From positions 39,504 through 103,503 of the forward strand of contig JAODUO010001659.1 of assembly GCA_025642075.2 (NCBI GenBank): a stretch of 64,000 nucleotides of DNA. The letters run 5' to 3'. Shown one piece after another: positions 11,150 through 56,340 of this stretch (positions are counted from its first letter, which is position 1; each line of letters starts with the position of its first letter). Below the pieces are notes generated by a model. That model was given only the letters and a program-made list of their open reading frames with translations. It did not search any database and was not told where the DNA came from. The position numbers and the translations under genes were made by a program. The DNA comes from Ridgeia piscesae. Taxonomy: Eukaryota > Annelida > Polychaeta > Sabellida > Siboglinidae.

Positions 11150-11576
11150 ACGTAATAGTCCGGGAGCAGAGAGGGTTGACCCTGCATTGTTGTATTAAGT
11201 TTTCTTTACTGTTGATTTTGTCTCTATTTTCAGAAACTGCTTGATGACATGTTGTCACCCTTGAGCAATTTGAGAAATTCAAGACGGCGTCCAAGATGGC
11301 CGCCATTACATATAAATGTCTATAACTCCCAACCTGTTCATCATAGGAAGGTGATTTGTGTCTCTATACCTAGGTTTTAGGGGTCTAGCTTTCCATCACA
11401 ACTAAGTATTATGTTAATATTGTATTACATAATGGCAATTTCCAAGATGGCTGTCAAAATGGCCCCCGTAACACTAAAACTGGCATATCTCCTTAACTAT
11501 TTACTCCAAATTAGTCGTGAATGTGTCTATCACTGGGTATTTTGGTGACACATCTATCTGTATCAGATCAAAGTTC
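11150..11576. repeat. left terminal inverted repeat
   Basis: Pairs with 14440-14848. Subterminal copies of a CAAGATGGC-like motif are seen near 11280, 11294 and 11452, with another just outside the arm at 11607. The similarity to the right arm stops sharply after TGTATCAG. Confidence 0.8.
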
Positions 11577-11880
11577 ATATACTGATGATGTCATCTAGAA
11601 ATTCAAGATGGCTGCCAGTTTACAAGCCCTGGTATATCTTCTATACTATTCAATCTTGGGGGAAATATGGAAAGGTAAACGACCACAGGTGTTATATTAT
11701 AACAAAATAATGCCAACATTAAAGAACATTTAATGTTCTTTAATTTTAAATCTGAATTCTCACACCGACTAGCAAAAGCATATTATACAATTCATATTTA
11801 AGGATGGCTACCACTTCACCAAATAATTTACACTGTTGTACATTGTGTTTCCCATGTGCATCGCAAAGACATGCAATGAA

Positions 11881-14440
11881 CTATAATGTCGGGTTACAGC
11901 AACCCTGACTATAGCAGGCGCAAAATGTTGTGCATTTCATTTTTGCACAGTTGCAACTACAAGCACATGAACTGCATGGAGTAGTTCTGTGGCATCCACA
12001 TTTTATTAGACGTAATACCATCTCTGGGACTAGTTCGACTTCATCAGAGTTGGAGGGACTTGTTTTGCTCATCCTTTACCCAACCATATTCCGTTGAGTC
12101 CAACTCGGGTCGATTCTGCGCTTCCAGTTACTGCCAAAAAAAGCCTTATTGTGAGCTCTTTAAACATTTTCTTTGAATGCCTCAGTTGTTGGTGGCAAGG
12201 TACACAACTTCGGTGTCGATTACCCTTTGCCTGTTTTTTGACAGCCATACCTTTAACCTTGTCTCTGACATTGTACAGTTTGCACGCGGAAATGAAGGAG
12301 GTAGCCTATTTAATAACAGATTCCATAGAATGCACTGGTGCATCCAACAAGTTAAGTGAGTGCCCCGATCGAAGTGTTTTGAGAAAGATAGTGGCCTTTC
12401 CAATTCCAAAATAGGAGGCAACGGTGTCACAGCCAGAAAGTGCATGTGCCGGGAGTATTCCTACGACTATCTCAGAATGCTTACGCACAGTTGTGCCTAT
12501 ATCAACCACCGTCCTTCCTTTGATGGGGGACTCCATCAATACAACATTCTTGAGATTTGCCATGTGATAATAATGCAGCAACAGTACAAAGACGTCAGTG
12601 TCATCCGCAACAACAGTGATTTTGCTTTCTGCATTTTCCGCGGCATAACTCAATACCTGTTGGACAATGACGTTATCTGCTTCTTCGTGTGAAGTTGTCA
12701 GATCTGCCCGTGAGATGACAACTCCGCCTTCACTGATTTCGATTGGCACCGCATCTGCTCCTGTTACCGCTAACTTGTGATGTCGTGTATTGTCCTCGTG
12801 AAACTTCGTATCCTGGACTAGATCATCAACTATCAGTTGCATCAGTTGCTTCTTGTTTTTAGAAGAGGCTAGTAGAATGAATCTTCTGCGTTGGAAGTTT
12901 ACTGTTGACTTGCAAATGATGAACCCTACTGACACCAGTTGCCCTAGATCCTGTGGTAGCACTCTTTGTGCTGTAATCATATTATCTGTCAAATATCAGA
13001 TATACGTCCTCGACCCGTAACCTTTTTCCTGTGGCATATTTGAAGTTCGCTATATAGTCATTGACAGAGCCATCAGCAGGCCAGGGAACTACCCAGAGTA
13101 TTGCTGAGCCATCGAGCACACTAACATTTGCACCACCAGCAACTCTATCAGACACCTCAATTTGGAGAATTTTCTTCAAGGTAGATTTCGATTTCGCAAT
13201 CCTCATATCTCCAGAATCATCAAACATGGACGTTGGAACTGGCGCAAGTTCATGACCAAGCACATCCTTAATGTCAATGTCCCGCCCACTGTCCTGTAGG
13301 CCAATCACCCTTGAGTAACTCAAATTTGTATCAAACACTTTCACAGCTCCGAACTTCACATGCTTCCTTGCATGATCCATAGTAACAACCTTCTTCGTGA
13401 TGATTTCATAAAGTCCCTGCGGTAACCGACTTTCGAAAAATTTCATTTGTTCAGTCCCGATTGTGACAGCATTGTGGACATTGACTTCAGTTGAACCAAT
13501 CTGGCCGCTAACTACATTGACTATACCACTGGGGTATGCCGCAGAATCTAAAGGATTAATGGAAGTGTCGAGTTTTTGTCTGATTCCATCTCGGTCTCTC
13601 TTGTATTGAGCGATCCTGGCTTTTGCCTCTTCTTTGTGTGTTGTCACCACCTTGCTTTGAGCGTCCTCATCCGTCATGTCATCCATATCAGATTCCAACC
13701 TGATGCATGCATGCAAACTAAGGGCCCATACCTTCAGCGTTTCTGGCTTAAGCGTGAGGCCAACTATCCCCCCAGGAGCATGCCCATACCGCATGAAGGT
13801 CGTCTCAATCATTATATCACTCCAGACGCCATTCCATAAGCCAGCAGAATGGTGCATGACATGCTCATCCTTCATGAAGTGTGACAACACCTCTTGTGGT
13901 AGCCGTTCCATTTCACGAAGGTAGCAAAACCCATATTTCGCATAGTTCATATGCCCCGCAGCAAGGAAGTATGGTAGCATTTGCTTGTAGGTTGCCAGAT
14001 AAGTAGCCAGTCACTTTCGCGCTCAGCCCGTACGAACATCATGGTGAGCAGGACAGGTTTTATCAAGACATCAAACCCAAAGTTTGGTAGTTTGACTCTT
14101 GCTGGCTTCAGTTTCGATAATTTGCATGAGGTAACCACTGCAATGTAGTGATATATCCTGAATGATTCCGCGAAGTGCCTCTTCAGCTACCATTCGTAAT
14201 GCTCTGACGTTCTGGGGAAACTTTTATTACAGTGAGCATTTTTGACACACCGCCAAACACAGCCGACATTATATCTGACAGACCGGTATCAGCCATCAGT
14301 GTTCCGATAGATCCAACGAAGCTCATTAGAGACTGCATCCCTCCCAACCGTAGGATAACATTTGAGAACCTTTCTGGATAAGTCCACTGAACTTCTAGAG
14401 CGACCCTGTACAGCTGATCACAAGTAAAAACTACGAACTG
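11881..14440 (-). pseudogene. XPG/FEN1-like nuclease with CXC tail, transposon-borne, decayed (copy 1)
   Basis: Pieces in family order on the minus strand: LYRVALEVQWTYPERF and GIGTLMADTGL (14200-14420); FPQNVRALRMVAEEAL; LIKPVLLTMMFVRAERESDW (about 14010-14075); a 332-codon frame (13980-12982) with MLPYFLAAGHMNYAKYGF; then a frame at 12992-12306. The nuclease-like motifs are LDGSAIL (D at about 13113), YLIFDR (about 12988), HEEAD (about 12675), VVADDTDVFVLL (about 12600) and HALSGCDTVASYFGIGK (about 12420). This order and spacing match FEN1/XPG enzymes: N-terminal Asp, second Asp, EAEA-like acids, DxD, then GxD and an H3TH-type GIG. The C-terminus (12072-11881) is a CXC cysteine-rich domain, CGCHRTTPCSSCACSC then CTTFCACYSQGCCN, likely DNA-binding. 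At least five frameshifts and several stops show it is dead, but the acidic residues are intact. The nuclease assignment is inferred from motifs. Confidence 0.75.
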
Positions 14441-14848
14441 ATACAGATAGATGTGTCTCCAAAATACCCAGTGATAGACATCTTCACGACTAATTTGGAG
14501 TAAATAGTTAAGGAGATATGCCAGTATTAGTGTTACGGCGGCCATCTTGGCAGCCATCTTGGAAATTACCATTATGTAATACGATATTAACATAATACTT
14601 AGTTCTAATGGATAGCTTGACCCCTAAAACCTAGGTATAAAGACAAAAATCACCTTCCTATGATGAGTTATGGTCATTTATATGTAACGGCGGCCATCCT
14701 GGACGCCATCTTGAATTTATCAAATTGCTCAAGGGTGACATGTTATCAAGCAGTTTATGAAAATAGAGACCCTTGGCTACCAAAATCAACGGTAAAACAA
14801 TGCAAGGTTAAGGGGGAAAAATGGCAGTTGGCTCCCAGACTATAATGC
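14440..14848. repeat. right terminal inverted repeat
   Basis: Inverted partner of 11150-11576. It contains CGGCCATCTTGGCAGCCATC near 14540 and GCCATCCTGGACGCCATCTTG near 14693, which are the reverse-strand forms of the CAAGATGGC motif. The coding frame of the element begins at or just inside its inner edge. Confidence 0.8.
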
Positions 14849-17188: not shown

Positions 17189-20079
17189 ACGCATTTATTT
17201 TCTCTCCAAAACAACTGACAGTGACACAAATATATATATTTTGACATTATATTTACAGATCAGCATTTGTAATTTTGATCAATATAAAGATTATTTACTT
17301 ACTGCTGCTACCAGTAGATTATTGGAATACCATGTAATATGTATGTACAAATTTACCTATTATTTATGTGCATCCTATAAATCCTTATCTGGTTTTTGTT
17401 AACAAGTACCATTGTTATAATTAATTTTTTTTAATAATATTATGAAATATAATAATTTCATATTATCAGAAAACAAATAGCACCACTGAAATGAATAGAC
17501 ACACTAAACAATATAGTATTCATATACACACTCATTCAATATACATGCAGTATTTCTAGTGTTCACAACATGTTCAGGTTTCAGTGTATATTTAAAAAGA
17601 ACATTGCACTGGGAAGAAATGTGCCACATTCACAGATAGCATTGCAAGCAATGGAGAACCAGGTGGATGTAATAAACTGTTGATGTCATTGCTGCACAAC
17701 CCCATGGTGCAGCACACATTGTGCATTATTGGTAGAACGTTTGACAACTTCAGAATGGTATGTAGCTAAACTGTCATCTTGGTGCTGCAGCAAGTTCAGT
17801 TGCAATCTGCATATTTTAAAATGCAAGTTGCAGCAGTCATTCTCATCCATTGTCTCTCTGAAATATACATATCATGTATTTATATAACACATCATCAAAT
17901 TTTTTTATTTCACCTGTTAATCAATACAAGGAAAATTAGTCAGTTTTTAATTCTATTATAGCTGAGAAACAATCACATTGTTTACACATACAATGCAGTT
18001 TATAGATACATATATTAATTGATGAGACTTGGGGTAGATAGATACTACATACCCCACAGAGGGTAGTAGAACTTTAAGTGTAATTTAAACCATATGAATA
18101 AGGTAACATATTCTCATCAATCAAGCTCAGAAGCAAATACAGACAATACATTACATTCATATGAAAACTGTGTATGGTATGCAATATTCAAGTTGTAAAC
18201 CGATGCAACATATAACAGCTTGTTTATGCTTACATTTTGGGTAAAGACAATTTTCAGATGTTTTAAATGGTCACTCTTTAGTCATTATTTCTAAGAAACA
18301 ATGTTCTTTATTGTTATGCCATCAATATAATAAACTTAGTTGTAACTTGTAAGCACCATGGTGACGAAAGGTACATGTATTAATACAAGACATTATGACG
18401 TTTGATTATATATCAGTACTGCACTAATAAATAAGTAGGATGGTGTGGGGTAGGTGATCTGTCAAGTTATAGGTATGTGCCAAGATGCACATACCATCAC
18501 ACAATGACAACATATTGTAACTCACCTGTTGTTCTTACCATTGTTTAGCCTGACTGTGTCATCTTAGTTATTTGGTAGATTATGCTAGGCTGTGTTCTGT
18601 AAGTATACAAACTATATGATAGTTTATAGCAATGCAAAACTGTACATGAAAGAACTTAATTATATTATTTACAGTGACAGTGTATTTTAATTGTGTAATA
18701 TTAGTATATATCATTATAACATACATGTACTGTGTGTATGGACTACTGATCTTTGAAATAATCTTGATGCTTCGCCAATATGTTAGAAAGTTAGTCTCAT
18801 ACATTAAAACACCATCTAACACAGTTCATATTTCTGAACTTGTCCCAGTTTGTAGGCGAACATTTTGCGTTAAATGAGTAAATACTAAAACATAATTTAC
18901 CAGGTCATGTTGAAACCCCATGTCAGCCATGACACACACCTGTGTCGAACGTCTCCCTGTGTACCTCTAACGGTTGTTCCAGACATTGCGACACCTAGGT
19001 CCTAATCCTGGCGATACAAATTACAATGAATCACTGACTCAGTGATTTGTCTTCTTATTTAAATCTTGCATTTGTTGATTTGTCGCTTAGCCTTATACCT
19101 TAGTCTTAGTCTGCATAGTAACCGATATTACATACGTACGAACACTGACCTGTATGCAGTATATATTAAGGTAGTTAGCCCTCGCGTAGCAGCAAATTCA
19201 CTGCAACTGTAAACCTTGACATTCCGTTGACTGTCAACACAGCCTGCTGTGTGACAACCGAGTGTGTCCTTGTTTGCGTTCTGATCAAATACTTCGCTTT
19301 TGTTATGTCCGTTATTTTATGTGCATGAATATTTCTCAGTGGCTCAGCTTCATTGTGTTACGTATCATATCTACACTGACTAATCACCAGTTTTCCTTGG
19401 ATAATTATCCGTGTTTTTTTCTTCCATTCACTGCCAGAACATGTGAGCAGAACTAAAACGACAAAACATCCCAAAAATCAGTGATCGTGCCCGTTGCAAG
19501 GCAAACAAAACTTCGCAGATTTTCGTACGTAAGATACGAAATTCTTAGCTGCGAAAATTCTTAACGCTTTCGAGAATACGAACTTACGAATTTTCGCAGC
19601 TAAGTAAGAATCCGCCATATTTACGAAAATTCTTACGTACGATGTAATTTTCTTCGAGAATACGGGCCCAACCAATGAGCAGGACCATTTAGTAACTTAT
19701 CGCAATAATTGAAAGCTTACTATACGATTATGATTATGTTGGCACATATGGTTAATTACAGAAGAAATTAGTTTCTATTTCAAAATAAACGAAATCTAAG
19801 CATGACAATACATTGAGGAAATGTTTAATAGGTATAGATATTATATATTTATTCTAAATAATATAAGTGCATGTCATATCAATCTACCATGTCCACGGCA
19901 CCTATAATCGGAAGTTAACTTGTTTTGGCATGGAATAATTGTTTGAGTAACGGGGTATTCCTTTTAGATTTGAGAGCAAACCGATAAATTCAGTAGTATA
20001 GTCTCCTCCCCATGAAATACATGGGGAGGAGAAGAATAAGCACACGGAGGAAGGAGACGGAAGGAGACTGGACGAGGCC

Positions 20080-21664
20080 GAGCGGAAGAAGATGACGGTG
20101 GAGCTGGAGAAGTACAGTCACCCCTCTCAATGACCAGCAACCAGGTGTCTATAACATCTGCAATGGCCAAGGGGCGCCAGACACAGTGAATGTTCAGAAC
20201 GCAATTAGCCATCGGGAGTGAGCAGAGCAGGCAGTTCTCCGCTTCGCTTCGCTAAGCAGTGAATTCCACAAGACAATAAAGAAGAAGGTCAAAACAATGG
20301 AGTTGCTCAAGAAGGCAGTTACTGTCAAGGGGAAGGCCATCTACGACGTCGTGACGCTGTTCAGTCGGCTGTTAGTCGTGGGGCAGCAGCGCAGCGTTGA
20401 TATAGCCGATGTCTTCCAGTTTGAACTGAGTCCTGATCGATGAGTACGGCTGCTTGAGGAAAGGAGACAAGGCCGTGCTCGTCAAGTCTCTCAGTGTCTC
20501 TGTCACGACTCCATGTCCTCCAGACGTGGTGCTGGTTGATGCCGGTCAGCTTCTGTATCACGTCGTCTGGCCAGTCTCCGAGACTACAGGAGACCTGGCT
20601 GCAAGCTTCGGCACTCGACTGGCCCACTACCCTCCTGTCTCCAAGAAAATCGAAGAAGCTCCAAGCGCAGAGGACCATGAGTGGACGAGAAGAGGAAGAG
20701 CCAAAGAAGTACATCTAACCCCAAACCCCTCCTTCCATGCCGATATATTATTCTTCACAATTCCAAGAATCTGCTTAACAACATTCTATGCAGCTAGCCA
20801 CTTCCACACAACATCCAACTCGTCAACATGCTGGAGTGTGTCATTACTCATGAGGAGGCAGACGTCACCCTCTGCAGTTACATGCTGAAAGCGGTGGCAG
20901 CAGGCGCCCAGACCATCCGAATCCTCAGTGATGATACCGCCGTCTTCGTTCTCTTGGAGTATTGGACATCAATGATGCGCGTTGTCGCCAAGATTCAAAT
21001 GGAAATGTGGAATGGCAATATGTTGTACATCAACGAAACTGTTCAGCGGTTAGGCCCCAAAAAGTGCAGTCAACTTATCGGTATCCACGCACTATCAGGC
21101 TGCGAGTTAGTGTCATACCCCTTTGGAAAAGGCCAGCGCTCAAGCTCCTAGAGATAGATATACCAGGTCTCGATCAAGTGCTCGGACAACCTGGGGCGAA
21201 CCACGCGCAGCTCCAGGAGGCATTCTTCTTACCCCTCTACGGACAGAAGGGATGTACAACAATGAATGACGCACGTGCTCACTTCTACCGTGGCCATAAC
21301 AAACCTCCGCAACTGAAGAAACTTCCACCGACTGATGCCAACCTCCTGTTGCATGTGCTCCGAGCTCATCTTCAGATGCTACTCCGGAAGGCTGCGGAAC
21401 AACGTGATCCACATGTAGAAGCTATTAATATTGCCAACTTTGGTTGGAATATCGAAGGCTCCGTCATCACACCGGCCGTCTCAACAGCGCCAGTAGCTCC
21501 CCAAGCACTACTGGATATAATTAGCTGTAGCTGCACTGCAGCGCAGGCCTTTCGTGCACGGACTACTGCAAATACGAGGGAGGAGACATCTGCTGTAGTC
21601 CTTTCATCAGCAAGCAGATGGATATCGAAGACGATGAAGGGGAGACAAGTGTCGATGATGAATA
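20080..21664 (+). pseudogene. XPG/FEN1-like nuclease with CXC tail, decayed (copy 2)
   Basis: Plus-strand pieces of the same broad family as 11881-14440. They are VYNICNGQGAPDTVNVQNAI, VKTMELLKKAVTVKGKAIYD, LLVVGQQRSVDIADVFQF, then MRKGDKAVLVKSL and PDVVLVDAGQLLYHVVWP (first acidic motif, about 20520-20570). Next come APSAEDHEWTRRGRAKEV, a frameshifted LLNNILCS stretch, CVITHEEADVTLCSYML (about 20830-20880), IRILSDDTAVFVLL, HALSGCELVSYPFGKG (about 21090-21135), PPTDANLLLHVLRAHLQMLL and ISCSCTA. The CXC tail is split by a frameshift: after CSCTA the other frame reads YCKYEGGDICCSPF and ends at a TAA at 21662-21664. The key residues are damaged: the DDTD motif reads DDTA, and the GCD motif reads GCE. 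It is the more diverged paralogue. Confidence 0.75.
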
Positions 21665-21689
21665 AATATACTCTTTATTTCCTTGTTAT

Positions 21690-22035
21690 GCACAGTGTAT
21701 ATACTTGCATATCAAAATGGCTGACAAATAAATTCAAATTCACATGTTTTATTTTCTTAATGTATACATGCATTCTGAGAAATGCTAAAGGTTGTGCAAG
21801 TAAATTTGACCTTTGATCTCTGACTTGACCTTGACATTGACCCCGGATCCAAAACATAACTTCAGAAATGGGCTCCCCATCCTGGAAAACCCTTAAAACG
21901 AGGTATTACACGACCCTCTATGTCATCGAGATCAAAGGTTGACAATTTGCCGACATTTAAGATGGCCGAGACCGCCATCTTGAATTCTGAGAAATGCTCA
22001 AGGTTGCACAAGGTGCAACCAAGCTAATTTTGCTC
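21690..22035. repeat. terminal-like sequence downstream of copy 2
   Basis: GACATTTAAGATGGCCGAGA followed by CCGCCATCTTGAATTCTGAG and AAATGCTCAAGG resembles the right arm of the 11150-14848 element (CGCCATCTTGAATTTATCAA, ATTGCTCAAGGGTGACA). A short duplicate of TCTGAGAAATGCT with AAGGTTGTGCA-AG occurs near 21774. This is probably the 3' end of the mobile element that carries copy 2. No matching left arm was found. Confidence 0.5.
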
Positions 22036-22419
22036 TCCTAACCATATAAAATACATTTCCATAAAAAACGTTTACAGTAGTTAACATTGCAAGGTCATCA
22101 TTATGGCAACTTGACTAATTAATTACACGATCTCTGTACCAGCGTTACATAAACATAAAATATTGTATTACAATATCGGATTAGCTAATTACATCAATAC
22201 ATTATTAAATGGTATATTTACATGCAAATGGTCATAAAGTATGCACAATAAACATATCCAGTACGTATTTTGAGATGTTTGTCTCGACATAATTTATCCA
22301 AGCGTCATGTTTCTTTGAATTATTTTTCGTAGCTGACGACAGAAACAATATGCGCCTTTTATATGTTGTGACATGGGTATATAAGTTACAACAAAATTCA
22401 ATATATGATTACATTTATA
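22036..22419. other. no recognised feature
   Basis: AT-rich sequence with no coding pattern, repeat or inverted structure that I can support. Confidence 0.5.
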
Positions 22420-22700
22420 ATGTCCATCGTTGGACGAAGGCCTCAGCATGTAATTGTCTTGCTCTATCCTCCGTCAGATGGTGCCCTTCCAGTACTCGTT
22501 TTGTTTCGTTTCTCCACGATCATCTCAATAATCACATTGTCATCTGAATCGTTTCCATTCGTATGAGTACGAAATAATGAATGATGTGCATTGTCTATCG
22601 GTGTGCTCTGCCCAAGTATTCTTCCGTCTGATGATTTTTCAAGCAAGTCTATGGCGTCTCTTACCCAGATGTTATGTTGTTGTCTCTATTTGTGCAGCAG
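22420..22700 (-). repeat. decayed LINE 3'-end-like repeat (related block at 31075-31400)
   Basis: ATGTCCATCGTTGGACGAAG plus GCCTCAGCATG at 22420-22450 is echoed at 31076-31106 by ATGTCCTGTGGTTAGGCAAA plus TGCCTCAGCATG. Both are followed by CAGATG or GATGATAC and then CTTCCAGTA. A CATCGTTGGAC-AGGCCTC phrase is typical of RTE-like LINE 3' ends. The minus strand gives an interrupted basic translation but no full domain. From 22701 to 22974 nothing further is seen. Confidence 0.45.
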
Positions 22701-22974
22701 TTAGCTTACTTTTACCTGAATGCTGAATGTTCACGTTTCCGAGCCTTATGGCATTGACATAAATATGAGCGAGTTGTTAACTCCGACTGCGTCTACCCTT
22801 GAATTTGTTACGGAGCTAAATGAAGGGTGATCGCTCATAGTGTGGCTCTTTCAGCACTACAAACTCCTCAAGTACGCAATGAAGATCATGGAGAGGGTCT
22901 AGAACTGAGAGTAATATAACAAGTGCAGATCAATAAAATGCAGATTAGCTATTATGTCATAGAAAGAAACGATA

Positions 22975-24630
22975 GATGCCATTACTAAGTTCGAAGGGAG
23001 AGAGTTTGACTATTTAGGACAACTAATTGTAACCCCAACAATGGTAGCTATGAAAATAAGAGATATGAAGGATAATAAATCACCTGGAGTGGATGGGATT
23101 CCTCCCAAATTACTATTGGAAATTGTAGAACAAATCAGCATACCGCTTGCAACAGTGTTCAATTTGTCATTAGAGGAGGGAATAGTTCCGTTAGAATGGA
23201 AAGAAGCAAACATTATACCATTATTTAAAAAAGGTTCGAGAAACAAGTCAGAGAACTATAGACCAGTGAGTTTAACATCGGTGATTTGCAAACTATTAGA
23301 AAGACTAATTAAAGATCACCTGGTTGATTTTCTTGTTAAAAATAAATTGATAAACCCATCTCAACATGGGTTTTTAAAAGCGAGGTCATGCTTAACAAAT
23401 ATGTTATGTTTTTTGGAAGATGTCACAAAGTGGCTAGATGAGGGATCACCAGTAGATATAATCTACTTAGATTTTAAAAAAGCCTTTGACAAAGTGCCAC
23501 ACCAAAGACTACTACTTAAACTAAAGGCCCATGGCATAGGAAATGGAATGATCAACTGGATAGAAAATGGCTTATTGGTAGAAGACAAAGAGTAGTAGTT
23601 GATGGGGAGGTTTCAAACTGGAAAGCGGTTTTGATTGGAATACCGCAGGGATCAGTACTGGGACCTATTTTATTCTTAATATATATCAATGATTTGGATG
23701 ATGACATAACAAGCAAGGTGTTGAAGTTTGCGGACGACACAAAAGTGTTTAGGAAAATTAAAAGTGATGCAGATAGACAGCATTTACAAGATGATCTTAA
23801 TAAGTTGATAGAATGGTCTGAGAAGTGGCAAATGCTGTTTAATTTTGGAAAGTGTAAGTGCCTTCACACAGGACATGGGAATGAAGATGCACAATATACA
23901 ATGGGTGATACTGTACTAAATACTACCTTAAAGGAAAAGGACTTAGGGTTAACTATTAGTGCTGACATGAAGGTATCAGAGCAGTGTGGAATTGCAGCAG
24001 CGAAGGGAAACCAAATTCTTGGATTAATTAGGCGAAATATAGTGTACAAAGAAAAAGAACTAATAATACCGCTGTATAAAACAATAGTTAGGCCTCACTT
24101 AGAATATTGTATACAAGCATGGAGGCCATATCGCAAGAAGGATATTGATATGCTAGAAAGAGTACAAAGGAGAGCAACCAAAATGATACCAAAACTCAGG
24201 AATATTAGCTATGAAATGCGTCTAAAAGAATGTGGCTTAACAACACTAGAAACCAGAAGATTGAGAGGAGATCAGATTGAGGTGTTTAAAATATTGAATG
24301 GATATGAAAATATCGACAGAAATATTTTTTTCACAGTCAAGGAAGAGAGAAGGACTAGAGGACATGGAGTTACATTAGCAAAGAAGCAGTGTAGACTAGA
24401 TATTAGAAAATTTTCATTTTCACAAAGAACAATAAACGAATGGAACAGATTATCAGCTGATTGTGTAGGTGCTAGCAGTGTTAATATATTTAAAAATAAA
24501 ATCGACATATACCTAAGAAGGGCGGGGTATACTTAGATAGATAGGTTGGACTCTCGATAAGCCAAATGGCTTCCTAGTCCACCTGCCATCTAGAGTTGAA
24601 TCTCTAGGTGGCAATCTTGTTAAATCTTGT
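22975..24630 (+). mobile_element. non-LTR retrotransposon, nearly intact reverse transcriptase
   Basis: The frame enters the RT domain at about 22980 and includes MKDNKSPGVDGIPPKLL, ENYRPVSLTSVICKLLER, the catalytic YLDFKKAFDKVPH block, IPQGSVLGPILFLIYINDL, and LKFADDTKVF with the catalytic FADD box intact. It continues with IVRPHLEYCIQAWRPY and a C-terminal FSQRTINEWNRL to a stop at 24534-24536. One lesion is visible: a base missing from an A-run near 23566 shifts the frame between NWIE and KWLIGRRQRVVVDG. The endonuclease is absent (5' truncation). The 3' UTR ends with AATCTTGTTAA repeated in tandem at about 24612-24635, as CR1-type elements do. It is the youngest-looking LINE in the window. 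Confidence 0.9.
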
Positions 24631-44379: not shown

Positions 44380-47300
44380 CAGGTCAAATAAGACAGCAAC
44401 AACATTCATCCTACTTTTGTGCATCATCCTATCAGGAGACATCCAAATAAATCCACGCCCCATCTCCGAAGACAGCGAAATCCTGACCACTAATCATGTT
44501 GATAATATACGACTTAACGGCCTCGTTGACAGAACAAAGACAAACATCCCAAATCTATTATCTAACCTTTGGACCGAACCCCCAAAATACTTCAACCCCT
44601 GAACGTAGTAAGAAAACCCAACGAAACACACTTAACGCAATCCTGATAAATACCAACAGCATTAGATTAGTATCACCAAGACAACCCAATTAAAAACAAC
44701 CATCCAGTCAAATAATCCAGACATCATGTCCTAGAAACTACCCTACCTACTCATTTCCACCACCCAACCAACCGACAAAAAAACCCAGAAGCATCCATGG
44801 AGATGGTGTCCTCTTAGCCTTTCGAAATGACATTGTTGCCGAGCCACTTACCAACCTAAACTCAAACTGTGAAACAGTGTGGGTAAAATTGAATTTTACA
44901 CGAAATAAATCCATTTACTTTGCCTCCTACTGCCGACCCCCAATGACCAGCGCAAATCGCGTGAAGTCCTGCAAGAATATCTGACCAAACTATAAAGAAC
45001 ACAGAAAACCCCACCAAATGTAGTCATAGCAAGAGACTTCAACCTTCTTGATATCAACTGGAGTAAACAGCAAATCATTAACAACAGAACAGCCACCAAG
45101 CACAACACACTTCTAGAAATCAGTAATGAATTTGGCCTGCAAAACATGACGAGCAATCCCACACGAATTGACTTTGGCAATATCCTTGACCATATACTCA
45201 CCTCAAACCCATCAATAATCGTAAATGCTCACACCACCCCTGGCATGAGAGACCACGAAGCTGTGACCTTTAATGTAAACCTAAACCATGTCCGTAACAG
45301 AAAACCACCACACAACATCTTCCAATATAAATCTGCAAACCGGGATAAATTTAATGATGATATACATCAACACACAACAACATACTTCCACATGAACCCA
45401 AACTCAAGAGATATCTATGAAAATTGGAACTTCTTACAGGAATAATCTTACTTCGGTAGTTGACCGCAATATTCCTAGCCGAAATACCAAAGCAAAAGCG
45501 CACCTTCCCTGGATTACACATGAAATAATAAGAATGCTAAGAAAACGCAACAAAAGCCACACAAAACCAAACAAACTGGACGTAACAGTGATTGGGAAAC
45601 GTTTAGTCAACTCCGAAGACAAGCCAGCAAAGCTGCAGCCAAATCCTACTCAGACTACCAAAATAATCACATTGGAGAAAATATAAAAATAAACCCAAAA
45701 CAGTACTGGTCATTCATCAAATCAAACAAACAAGAATGCATTGGCATCCCTACTTTGCAAACAAATGGCCAAATAATCACAAATGATCGCGACAAGGCAA
45801 ATACCCTTAACAACCAATTCAGCTCCGTTTTTACCTAAGAAATCTACCCCATCCCCAAACTAGCTCCATCCGTAAAATTCGATGTCACTTTCCTCGAAAT
45901 TGGGATAGACAGAGTAGTTATGCAACTGAAAAACCTAAATCGAATTAAGCTACAGGCCCATATGAATTACCTGCTAGGGTCCTCAAAGAGACTGCAGCAG
46001 AAATAGTCCCAATTATCACACACGTTTTTCAGCAGTCATACAACACATCCAACATTCCAGATGACTGGCTCCAGGCAATAGTAACACCAATAAACAAAAC
46101 GAGCCTCAAATCAGACCCTGCCAAATACAGACCCATTTCACTATCATGCATCCTCTGCAAAGTGATGGAGCACATTATCCTTATCGACACGTGGAAACAC
46201 TTACACAAACAAAACATCATCCTCCACTTCCAACACGGTTTCCAATCAGGCTGTCTTGTGAGTCCCAACTCATCGAGACAGTTCATGACTGGATAACAGC
46301 TATAGATACAAAGAAACATATAGATGCCATCCTGCTTGACTTCGCCAAAGCCTTTGACAAAGTCCCTCATAAACGTCTCCTATCAAAATTAGCCTTCTAT
46401 GGAATAACTGGGAACACACAAAAAACTGGGTAAAATAATTAATTTCACACCGAAAACAGAGAGTTTCAGTGTCGGATAATACATGGAGTACCACAGGGCT
46501 CAGTCCTAGGACCAGTTATTTTTCTGCTATATATAAATGATATAAACAACAACATTCAATCTCCAATACGGCTCTTTGCTGATGGCAGCATCATCTATAG
46601 CAAAATCAAATCTGAACCAGATAACATCATCCTCCAATCTGACCTGATCCAACTAAAAACATGACTAAACAAATGTCAAATGTTGTTTAATATCCCCAAA
46701 TGTGTGCATCTCCCAATAACAAACAACACCACACCCAGACAACATTCGTATTCCCTCTGTGGTGTGCCACTCTCCACAGTCTCCAGCCACCCATATCTGG
46801 ACTAAAATTAGATACTACACTAACCTGGGCGAATCATGTCACTGACATAGCTTCCAAATGATCAAAATGTTTAGGTATGATCAAACGAACCCTCGGATCA
46901 TGCAAACCTGATGTAAAAGAAACTGTCTGTAACATGCTAGTCCGACCAAAACATGAATATGCCTCTCCTATATGGAATCCACTCACCATTACCCAAATTA
47001 AACATCTTGAAAAGTTACAGCACTGTGCAGCCAGATTTATCAAAAACGACCATCGACGCCAAACAGCTACAACAGACCTAATAGCCACGCTTGGATGGCC
47101 CACTCTTGAACTACGCACGATTATCAAACAAGCCATGACATCTTACAATATTTTTAATAACATAATCAACATCACACCACCAAAAACATTAAAAAAACAG
47201 TGGCCATTAGCCACCAGGTGCAGCACCAACATTGCAGTGTTCTGCTTTTACCTCCATGCAATTCGCATATGGAATATTATCCCACCACACATTACTGAAA

Positions 47301-47405
47301 TAGAAAACCCTATCGATTTTCAAGCAGCAATAATGAACATTCTCTTCACACCACCCAATCACCTAAATTGCCTGTAAAACAAACAAACAAACAAACATAC
47401 ATACA
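44380..47405 (+). mobile_element. near full-length non-LTR retrotransposon, inactivated
   Basis: The element opens with CIILSGDIQINPRP. It carries an endonuclease (GDGVLLAFRNDIVAEPL, YCRPP, ARDFNLLDINW, ILDHILTSNPS, then MRDHEAVTFN). It then enters the RT domain with SLKSDPAKYRPISLSCILCK, ILLDFAKAFDKVPHKRLL, GVPQGSVLGPVIFLLYINDI and LFADGSIIY. The catalytic FADD box reads FADG. The C-terminal region (VCNMLVRPKHEYASPIWNPL, FCFYLHAIRIWNIIPPHI) ends at 47375-47377, followed by an AAAC-repeat tail (AAACAAACAAACAAACATAC). At least eight frameshifts and stops are present. All domains are in order, so this was a full-length insertion. Confidence 0.9.
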
Positions 47406-50828: not shown

Positions 50829-52000
50829 GTGCGACAAAGGCTACGAAAAACGAAACACAAGCCCCCTTTGCCATCCATGATATTGGCCAATGTCCGGTCT
50901 CAGAAAGCCCTTAAGATGGACGAATTACGTGCGAACGCAAACCTTTTCAATGAATATAGAGATGCTTGCCTTATGGCCTTTACCGAGACTTGTTGTGATT
51001 TGGATGCCCCACCCAGCTTGATCGCGACAAGCAGACGACCGGAAAGGCGAAAGGTGGGGGTGTTTGTTTATATGTCAACGGGCGTTGGTGCAAGACCGTC
51101 AGTGTGCGTGAGCCGCTCTGCACCCCGGACATCGAACTGCTGTCAGTGTCACTACGGCCACTGATCTCCTCCGCGAAAGTCCACAAAGGTTTGTGACTGT
51201 TGTTTACATACACCTCAGAACCAACGTGGATCGCGCTGCCAAGCATATATGTGACGTAACACAGAAACGTGACGGTTTTTCTACCGATGCACCCAAGTTC
51301 ATACTGGGTGATTTCAATCTGCGTAAACTCAATAATTGTCTGACAACTTACCACCGGTACGTCTCGTGCCCAACACGAATGAACAAAACAATTGACTTGT
51401 ACTGCGGTTCGGTGTCCAATGCGTATCGGTCCATTCCCAAGCCGCCGATTGGTGACTCCGATGACAACACTGTTCACTTGGTACCTATTTATAAATAAGT
51501 GCTGAAGTGTGCAAAGTGTATTGAAAGACAGGTCAAGGTGTGGGAAGAAGATAGCGTAGCGAGAGTACGAGGTTGTTTTGATTGTACGAACTGGGATGTT
51601 TTTCGGAATTCCTGTGATAGCCTTTATGAACTTACGGATGTTGTAACCAGTTACCTTTCTTTCTGTGTTGACACTGTTATACATGTGAAGAAGTCCAAAG
51701 TGTTCCCTAACAACAAACCATGGGTTTCTAAAATGCTAAAGAAAGTATTAAACGAAAAGAAAAGGGTTTATTTTCTGAGATACTTAGCTAAGCGTATGTG
51801 ATTTGAGAACAGTATGGTATGGCATTAAAACCATGAGTGACATGAAGCATTACGGACATAATTTCAATCGCTTATCCCCCTTGGGGGGTAAAGATGATGG
51901 GTCGTTTGCAGAGGATCGTTTTAATAAAAATGATTTTCGTCCTGTCATTGGTGATATTATAAGCTCCAAAAAGACAAGTGGAAACATACATACTTTCCCG
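50829..52000 (+). mobile_element. non-LTR retrotransposon endonuclease and linker region, decayed
   Basis: Plus-strand frames: SMILANVRSQKALKMDELRA, DACLMAFTETC (normally TETWL), GGVCLYVNGRWCK in a shifted frame; then VVYIHLRTNVDRAAKHI, APKFILGDFNLRKLNNCL, TRMNKTIDLYCGSVSNAY and GDSDDNTVHLVP. Catalytic GDFN is intact, while the usual SDH reads SDD. After an in-frame TAA the linker continues with KVWEEDSVARVRGCFDCTNW and KVFPNNKPWVSKMLKKVLNE, then WYGIKTMSD, up to about 52000. The RT is missing. A family with this wording is common in fish and marine invertebrates. Between 50511 and 50828 I see nothing. Confidence 0.85.
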
Positions 52001-52129
52001 TAAAAAAACATATTGTTACGAAAACATCGACCAAAAGAACTCTACTGAACATTGGAGAGGGAGGGCCTCCTGGGGATAGTACGACGCCATGCAGTGAAAA
52101 CCGTAAGGAAGCTACATCGCCGATACCCT

Positions 52130-52962
52130 TCTTGTCTTCCAAGAAAATATCAAAAATCGGAACATGGAACGTGAGAACCATGTTCGAAGCAAACAAAGCA
52201 GCCCAAATAGCAAAGGAACGACGGGCCTACAACATCACAGTATTAGGGCTATGTGAAACGAGGTGGACACAGTCGGGGCAAGTCAGACCGAATACGGGAG
52301 AAATGATACTGTACTCGGGGCATGAAGAGGAAGACGCACATCCTATGAGGCACAGAATGCTCTCATTAGTTGGGAAGCAGCGGGAACAAGGATCATCTAT
52401 GCCTCGTTCAAAACAAAGAAAGAAAACATCAAGTTCAGCATCATTCAGTGCTACGCACCCACAAACGACAAGGATGAGGAAACAAAGGAGGACTTTTACA
52501 ACAAACTGCAAACATTGTGTGACAAACTGAAGGAGAAGGACATCACAATACTCATAGGAGATTTGAACGCCAGAATCGGATCAGACAACAGCGGGTACGA
52601 AGAAGTTATGGGCAGACAGGGACTTGGCAAAATGAATGAAAATGGCGAGATGTTGGCTGACTTTTGTGCATTTAACAACATGATCATCGGAGGCAGCGTG
52701 TTCCCGCATGGAAGGATTCATAAAGCAACCTGGGTATCACCAGACCACAGAACAGAAAATCAAATAGACCATATCTGCTTAGGACGGAAGTTCAGAAGAT
52801 CAATGCAGAATGTGAGAGGCCAGATGCAGCCTCAGACCACCATCTAGTGTTGGCCAGAATGAACATGAAGCTAAAAAAGGGAGAAGTCAAGAGGAGCACC
52901 AGAACGCAGTACAATGTGGACTTCTTAAAGGACAGGGTGACAACAGAGACCTTCAGACTTAC
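52130..52962 (+). mobile_element. RTE-like endonuclease fragment ('craniofacial development protein 2'-type)
   Basis: The frame begins KIGTWNVRTMFEANKAAQIA, then LGLCETRWTQSGQVRPNTGE and, after shifts near 52325 and 52440, FYNKLQTLCDKLKEKDITIL, IGDLNARIGSDN, ATWVSPDHRTENQIDHICLG and SDHHLVLARMN. All endonuclease signature residues (N, E, D-N, SDH) can be found across frames. The coding sequence continues to VDFLKDRVTTETFRLTV, where it passes directly into the octamer satellite at 52963. The RT part is absent. Confidence 0.85.
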
Positions 52963-55216: not shown

Positions 55217-56154
55217 CTAGCAACAAGTGTCGGCACCAAACGGCGTATGGCAGAGAGCACTGTTTAACGTTCTGTCCCATTGATAACCGAACATCCGAAA
55301 ATCCAAGTCGTAGATGCGCATGAGTTGTGTAACGTGTCCTGGTGGTAGTCCAGTGAACAGGTAAGATATATTTTTCCCCTTGCTAATATCATACGTCGGC
55401 GTTCGTAAGTTGACGTTTCTCCCAGGAAGTTTCGAGTCAGAATTGAACCCTAGTTTGGGCAAAATTATTCTTGCATCTTGTTCCATGGTTTCTAGCCTGA
55501 CGATGTGATCATACTTCACGCGACACGGGTCGCATACATCGTAGTAACGCCTCCAGTGCTCGTTGAATGTAGTCGGTCTTTCGTTGAGTAAATATTTCAC
55601 AAACTCCCCGAACTTCACGTCGTGTCCAGTGTTGAGGGATTTCTTGTTAGCTTTCTTGCGGTACTTGCTGATGATGTACTTTCCGAACATTGTGTGGAAC
55701 ACTTTGTTTTTTGGACCGAATTTCTCGCGATATGCGGATGTGAGACGGTCGAATGGGTGCCGAACTACCATGAACTTGTAGTAGTTGCGCAGGCGGAATT
55801 CCACCTCCTGCCGCGTGTAGTCGCTGAGGACATGCAGCCAGAGCGTGCGCATGAAAGCGCGGCTGTGCACGGGGATTTTGTCCGGTGGTGTGTGGCTCAA
55901 CTTGCCCGTCGCGTTGATGAGTACATATTTCCACGTGGAGCAGGCGGCGTTAGCGACAAAGCAGCCCATTACCTTGTGTCTGTCGTCGACGAAGATGTTT
56001 TCGAGTATATCTGTGGTGATGTTGTCAAAACTGGAGTTGATGTTAGCGGACACATTGCATGCTCGCAACATGGTAGATCGGCGTTCAACGGGCGAACATA
56101 AACGATACGACCCGCGTTTGTCCTCAACTGTCACATCGTCGACGAAATATGTAC
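55217..56154 (-). CDS. carbohydrate sulfotransferase (HNK-1ST/CHST8-14 family), terminal exon
   Basis: Codes for a Golgi lumenal sulfotransferase domain that would move sulfate from PAPS to a glycan. The exon starts after a clear acceptor, TTTTATATTTTAG, at 56155, so the upstream TTG/ATG-like codons are intronic. Seen in order: RLCSPVERRSTMLRACN, GCFVANAACSTWKYVLINAT at the 5'-phosphosulfate loop, FMVVRHPFDRLTSAYREKFG at the 3'-phosphate site, KFGEFVKYLLNERPTTFNEH, WRRYYDVCDPCRVKYDHIVR, and a C-terminal FRMFGYQW. These match the Sulfotransfer_2 fold used by chondroitin/dermatan and HNK-1 sulfotransferases. The 5' loop is unusual: the family's P-K-x-A/G-C-x-x-W reads A-N-A-A-C-S-T-W. The frame is intact for about 312 codons to its stop. 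The exons encoding the membrane anchor are not found within the window. Confidence 0.9.
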
Positions 56155-56340
56155 CTAAAATATAAAACAATCACTCGTGTAAAGACAATTGATAGGCGAC
56201 TTATCCAGCCGGAATTTGTTTGGAATGGCGCATTTTCGTAGCCCATTAAATTATACATAGCTCTATGCCAACACAGAGAAAATGTGATACAATATATTGC
56301 CGCTATAAATACGCAGTTTTGTATGAACTGTACTTCTGCG

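Follow-up and report, generated by a model that had tools for sequence, protein, structure and literature searches.

A decayed transposon of Ridgeia piscesae with long inverted repeats and a gene whose longer relatives appear to join a DDE transposase to a FEN1/XPG-type nuclease

The window analysed here is a 64,000-nucleotide stretch of the annelid Ridgeia piscesae (assembly GCA_025642075.2, contig JAODUO010001659.1, positions 39,504 to 103,503), and in this study we focus on an element that occupies positions 11156 to 14842 of the window as an internally deleted copy, oriented on the minus strand. The element is delimited by matching termini, TAGTC(C/T)GGGAGC, with TAA on either side, and by two terminal inverted repeats (TIRs), the left one lying on the 3' side of the gene (11156 to 11575, plus strand) and the right one on its 5' side (14429 to 14842, minus strand), where the inner side is shortened by deletion. 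An earlier sequence-only reading had described inverted arms of about 420 bp around a broken gene; counted with their diverged outer stretch, the arms measure 420 bp (left) and 414 bp (right). The blastn match between the left arm and the reverse-complemented right arm spans 11220-11575 and 14429-14770, with 316 of 356 columns identical (89%, E 1e-135); ungapped blocks of the arms, 238 and 76 nt long, reach 92%. Taken by itself, the outer stretch is less convincing, with 9 of 2000 random window pairs scoring equally high. The left terminus, TAGTCCGGGAGC, starts at 11156, and its right counterpart, TAGTCTGGGAGC, agrees with it at 11 of 12 positions and ends at 14842. From this one copy we infer a 3-bp target site duplication, TAA at 11153-11155 and 14843-14845; this candidate is the longest common flank among the offsets tried, and so short that chance could give it. 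A blastn comparison of the element with the 64-kb window gave no match beyond the element itself, its arms and short repeats inside it.

Between the arms, homology to a single gene on the minus strand is distributed over three pieces of differing frame followed by a cysteine-rich tail, with six in-frame stops in all, in agreement with the broken gene of the earlier description. The first piece (14234 to 14449, minus strand) is left over from the transposase half and shows tblastn identities of 64%, 62% and 57% to the relatives P0021, P0036 and P0034; it holds the putative second catalytic Asp (codon 14419-14417), while the His of a conserved GGxH motif reads Gln. The second piece (12880 to 14223, minus strand), recognized by homology and by the codons located in it, holds the remaining transposase half and the start of the nuclease, with the putative catalytic Glu at codon 13806-13804, the LDG Asp at 13113-13111, the FDR Asp at 12990-12988, and four in-frame stops (14073, 14025, 14013 and 12984). 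The rest of the FEN1/XPG-type domain lies in the third piece (about 12100 to 12878, minus strand), which carries HEEAD, ADDTD, SGCDT and FGIGK and one in-frame stop (12308). The CXC-like cysteine-rich tail was read from the translation of 11896 to 12000 on the same strand, and one further stop falls in the frame of this piece. All motifs listed by the sequence-only reading (LDGSAIL, YLIFDR, HEEAD, ADDTD, SGCD, GIGK) could be placed in this copy, the first as VLDGSAIL. A Pfam search of the three gene pieces gave nothing above the cut-off.

The window copy lacks the 5' part of the gene, including the first Asp of the Asp-Asp-Glu (D-D-E) triad; this loss, like the shortening of the right arm, had escaped the sequence-only reading. 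Because gene homology begins (14449) within about 20 bp of the end of right-arm identity (14429), the sequence indicates an internal deletion, in which the right arm lost its inner portion and the gene everything as far as a point shortly ahead of the second Asp. Judged from other copies, left TIR-like DNA runs inward to about 11707: residues 1-99 of P0006 match left-arm positions 262-558, that is, window positions 11411-11707. Since this arm-derived sequence reads for 99 residues, to window position 11707, before the gene, the undeleted arm is probably about 550 bp long.

Protein relatives were collected in two large searches, one with a 342-residue piece (178 matches, of which the best 120 are listed) and one with the gene read-through (169 matches, again with the best 120 listed). 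Both queries lacked the N-terminal half, so the share of relatives without that half is not to be judged from these searches. Among the listed matches, several relatives found with the read-through are 1155-1344 residues long. Matches that name an organism come from animals, namely Apostichopus, Holothuria, Porites, Nematostella, Nucella, Nymphon and fish (Champsocephalus, Aldrovandia); the one exception among them is an entry from a bacterial metagenome-assembled genome, Sedimenticola, and is presumably contamination. From 218 collected proteins, long or overlapping matches were picked by hand for three alignments, A1, A2 and A3, of 15, 67 and 49 members. Those of A1 are 1180-1344 residues long, and some fall short of one end. 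Ahead of the nuclease they share the conserved stretches DNFDADISSQNGK, FTxDQQLY, RLGGMH and WSDMxIETTF, and a similar cysteine tail is carried by the 12 of 15 that reach it. A Cys/His segment, HCLFCGE.C, is found in P0169 and P0175 (the latter named Tesmin/TSO1-like CXC domain protein), the sole members of A1 to extend that far N-terminally. As P0168 (1344 residues) starts about 130 residues downstream of the start of P0175 in A1, the complete protein, at least 1344 residues long, may be near 1450 by estimate. The intact element probably encodes a single protein. Its four parts, from the N- to the C-terminus, would be a Cys/His-rich segment; a DDE transposase of predicted RNase H fold, in which a large helical insertion separates the second Asp from the Glu; a nuclease of the FEN1/XPG fold; and a CXC-like tail. 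Five long relatives (P0183, P0185, P0191, P0196 and P0216) end at or just past FDR, perhaps at an intron boundary in those hosts.

In the structural model of a relative, the nuclease half has the EXO1/FEN1/XPG fold, with a PIN-like core and a helical H3TH (helix-three-turn-helix) region, as the sequence-only reading had anticipated. Its expectation of a FEN1/XPG-type order of acidic residues was likewise confirmed on the relatives: in the 67-row alignment the seven positions are conserved in 64/66, 64/64, 51/51, 51/52, 49/49, 49/49 and 45/45 covered rows, and codons for all seven are present in the window copy. We take these residues to correspond, by their order, to those of FEN1. The element nuclease resembles the structure-specific nucleases FEN1, EXO1, XPG and GEN1 in fold and in the order of the seven acidic residues, the last of which precedes the GIGK loop, yet it shares only 10-16% identity with them in the listed structural rows and, unlike them, it is fused behind a transposase-like half and bears a CXC-like tail. 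Pfam XPG was not matched among the 15 members of A1, and sequence searches of the PDB returned no credible match. When the whole model was searched against BFVD, many top rows were viral flap, XRN or XPG-type nucleases, together with unnamed or uncharacterized proteins, and we draw no inference from them.

The long relatives carry, ahead of this nuclease, a conserved D-D-E triad that is complete in 13 of the 15 members of A1 (putatively D149, D324 and E529 in P0132). Moreover, the first 23 VIA-align structural rows for the N-terminal half are DDE transposases or RAG1, in lists where the absence of a match is no evidence of absence; the DDE fold predicted for this half is supported but not proved. 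The first structural matches, hAT (Hermes), IS256 (ISCth4) and RAG1/Transib, resemble it in the predicted RNase H fold and in the helical insertion before the Glu, yet are only 6-10% identical in those rows. Unlike any of them, the element carries an added nuclease, and where hAT has C/DxxH its DDE half has GGxH. No Pfam transposase family was matched at E up to 0.1 among the 15 members of A1. DUF6589 is the sole Pfam family to match more than one of them (nine of the 15 at E values no higher than 0.1, the best being 1.3e-4), and P0036 stands barely above its cut-off (27.2 against 27 bits); reading this sequence match as a link to fungal elements would be speculation, and the literature searched contained nothing relevant on DUF6589 (PF20231). 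KDZ transposons carry cysteine clusters; the 15 members of A1 match five Pfam families, none of which is a KDZ family, and no search was aimed at KDZ.

The sequence-only reading had proposed a transposon whose own enzyme is an XPG-type nuclease. Its TIR-bounded, nuclease-carrying element stands, whereas the replacement of a DDE transposase by the nuclease is not supported, in view of the triad in the long relatives and of the structural rows. We also weighed the strict form of that proposal, in which a PIN/XPG nuclease is the sole enzyme of transposition. It draws on the window copy and on some relatives that begin past the first Asp, and on P0121, an open frame of 776 residues, sharing about 86% identity with the pieces in the window, that runs from just past KKFPQN through the nuclease and the CXC tail, with KIGK in place of the GIGK of the family. 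P0121 may truly start there, or its start may merely reflect the end of a contig or the gene calling. Furthermore, the switch from TIR to gene falls at almost one position in P0003, P0006 and P0008 (KQFPQN, KKFPQN and PQN, respectively), and the extent of P0121 is nearly that of their form; since the three share this position while being mutually only 70-88% identical, this shortened form seems to have multiplied and spread. However, because long relatives were found, whose D-D-E half has near-invariant residues, a nuclease-only transposon is improbable; the Glu region is still kept in P0121 and in the window copy, and shortened copies can be mobilised by the protein of a full-length partner. 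With the first Asp gone from the window copy and both gone from the P0003/P0006/P0008 form, these copies would need such a partner.

Arms and gene appear together beyond the window. Peptides coded by the TIR adjoin the same gene in five of the 218 collected proteins: on the 5' side in P0003, P0006 and P0008, on the 3' side in P0215 of Nymphon striatum (a short peptide of 14 residues, E 9.6e-5), and in P0120, where TIR and gene pieces are mixed in rearranged form. These proteins bear on the possibility that a host nuclease gene is flanked merely by chance by inverted repeats unrelated to it, an idea that would suit the decay of both gene and arms at a single locus read at the DNA level. With arm pieces joined to the same gene elsewhere, several matches per species in Nymphon striatum and Nucella lapillus, and a second, distant relic in the same window, we regard it as highly improbable. 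When the TIR-coded part of P0006 was used as a query, 39 candidates were obtained, of which P0006 itself and P0003 were the only ones to match. Searches for further genomic copies by means of A1 gave 19 pattern stretches in viral_contigs and 80 in genome_contigs, with none confirmed in either. A separate observation concerns a host gene model of Nymphon striatum, P0091, which bears the name Clavesin-2 and is joined to part of the element protein; the join reads NFQDGCQ, a stretch that the TIR codes as well.

Beside the arms, the gene, the conserved residues, the shared TIR pieces and the nuclease fold of a relative, all of which were obtained by calculation, the position of the element among known transposons has to be considered. 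Kojima is said to have described AcademX, in 2020, as a lineage of the Academ superfamily; we take its nuclease to be specifically XPG-like, and the X to stand for XPG. In the parts of the sources available, AcademX is the nuclease-encoding Academ lineage, with target duplications of 3 or 4 bp against 9 or 10 bp in AcademH, these lengths being tied to the nuclease and the helicase encoded (PMC10045372), and Academ is counted among the DDD/E superfamilies (PMC9587614). The view of the sequence-only reading that no named transposon class is known to be so built is likewise not supported, given these descriptions. The element resembles AcademX in encoding a nuclease, as judged by fold and residues, and its candidate duplication of 3 bp, seen in one copy, compares with the 3 or 4 bp reported; a difference is that the window copy is a broken one, its first Asp missing. 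The likeness is to the published description rather than one of protein homology, and the available part of that description does not state the fold of the nuclease. If intronless, the intact element would measure about 5.4 kb (a gene of about 1450 codons and two arms of about 550 bp), and Academ consensus elements average 5565 bp in the part of the source available (PMC10294476). In the literature searched, AcademX was named in PMC10045372 alone. That literature contained nothing on Academ together with XPG, nothing on the PIN domain or flap endonucleases with transposons, and nothing relevant on the CXC domain or TSO1 with transposons, nucleases or corals.

We consider it probable that the element is a dead, internally deleted TIR DNA transposon whose intact form encodes a DDE-flap-nuclease fusion protein, most likely of the AcademX kind. 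By description it likely works like AcademX and likely belongs to it; nuclease-carrying transposons being already named, it is most likely a further member of such a kind and not a new class. One point weighs against this assignment: Academ is almost confined to bivalves among molluscs, according to the available part of PMC10294476, with which the gastropod matches found here fit poorly. The same point favours the view that a fused DDE and FEN1-type transposase forms a superfamily of its own, apart from Academ, as do the structural matches to hAT, IS256 and RAG1/Transib types and the standing of DUF6589 as the only Pfam family shared by members of A1. We hold this view to be unlikely, as a DDD/E transposase, a nuclease and target duplications of 3-4 bp are published traits of Academ and AcademX, as far as the available text goes (PMC10045372, PMC9587614). 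Similarly doubtful is its fuller version, in which one chain bears RAG1/hAT-like DDE and FEN1-type sites and the separate superfamily includes a multiplied shortened lineage, having kept TIRs, nuclease and tail and lost both Asp residues of the DDE site, that lives off full-length elements.

For the favoured AcademX-like fusion, we infer a division of labour between the DDE and nuclease sites. The DDE half would bind the long TIRs, cut the element ends and join the 3' ends to the target at points staggered by only about 3 bp. The strands left unjoined by the DDE site would be handled by the flap nuclease, which would cut or trim their 5' ends, or flaps, at the junctions formed on excision or integration. 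DNA binding would fall to the tail and the N-terminal Cys/His segment, and shortened copies would be mobilised by the protein of a full-length partner. If the fusion works in this way, it offers a direct test of the role of a second, structure-specific nuclease in eukaryotic cut-and-paste transposition, which might replace hairpin opening, cut the non-joined strand or trim flaps at the target. As the DDE half resembles RAG1 and Hermes, the comparison with V(D)J recombination would become a concrete one. Furthermore, such elements are a likely origin for proteins of corals, echinoderms, molluscs, sea spiders and fish named 'hypothetical', 'uncharacterized' or 'Tesmin/TSO1-like CXC'.

The second relic of the same protein superfamily lies at 20111-21615 on the plus strand; over the 40 rows listed, identities range from 24 to 38% and E goes down to 3e-24. 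It carries HEEAD, SDDTAVF, HALSGCE and a cysteine tail, and is older than the main element; inverted repeats around it (17500-23500) are only 20-28 nt long. Elsewhere in the window, reverse-transcriptase/endonuclease-like frames, recognized by eye and probably belonging to long interspersed nuclear elements, lie at 22963-24536, 46862-47377 and 51955-52847, and a frame of 317 residues at 55217-56170 on the minus strand resembles, also by eye, a carbohydrate sulfotransferase.
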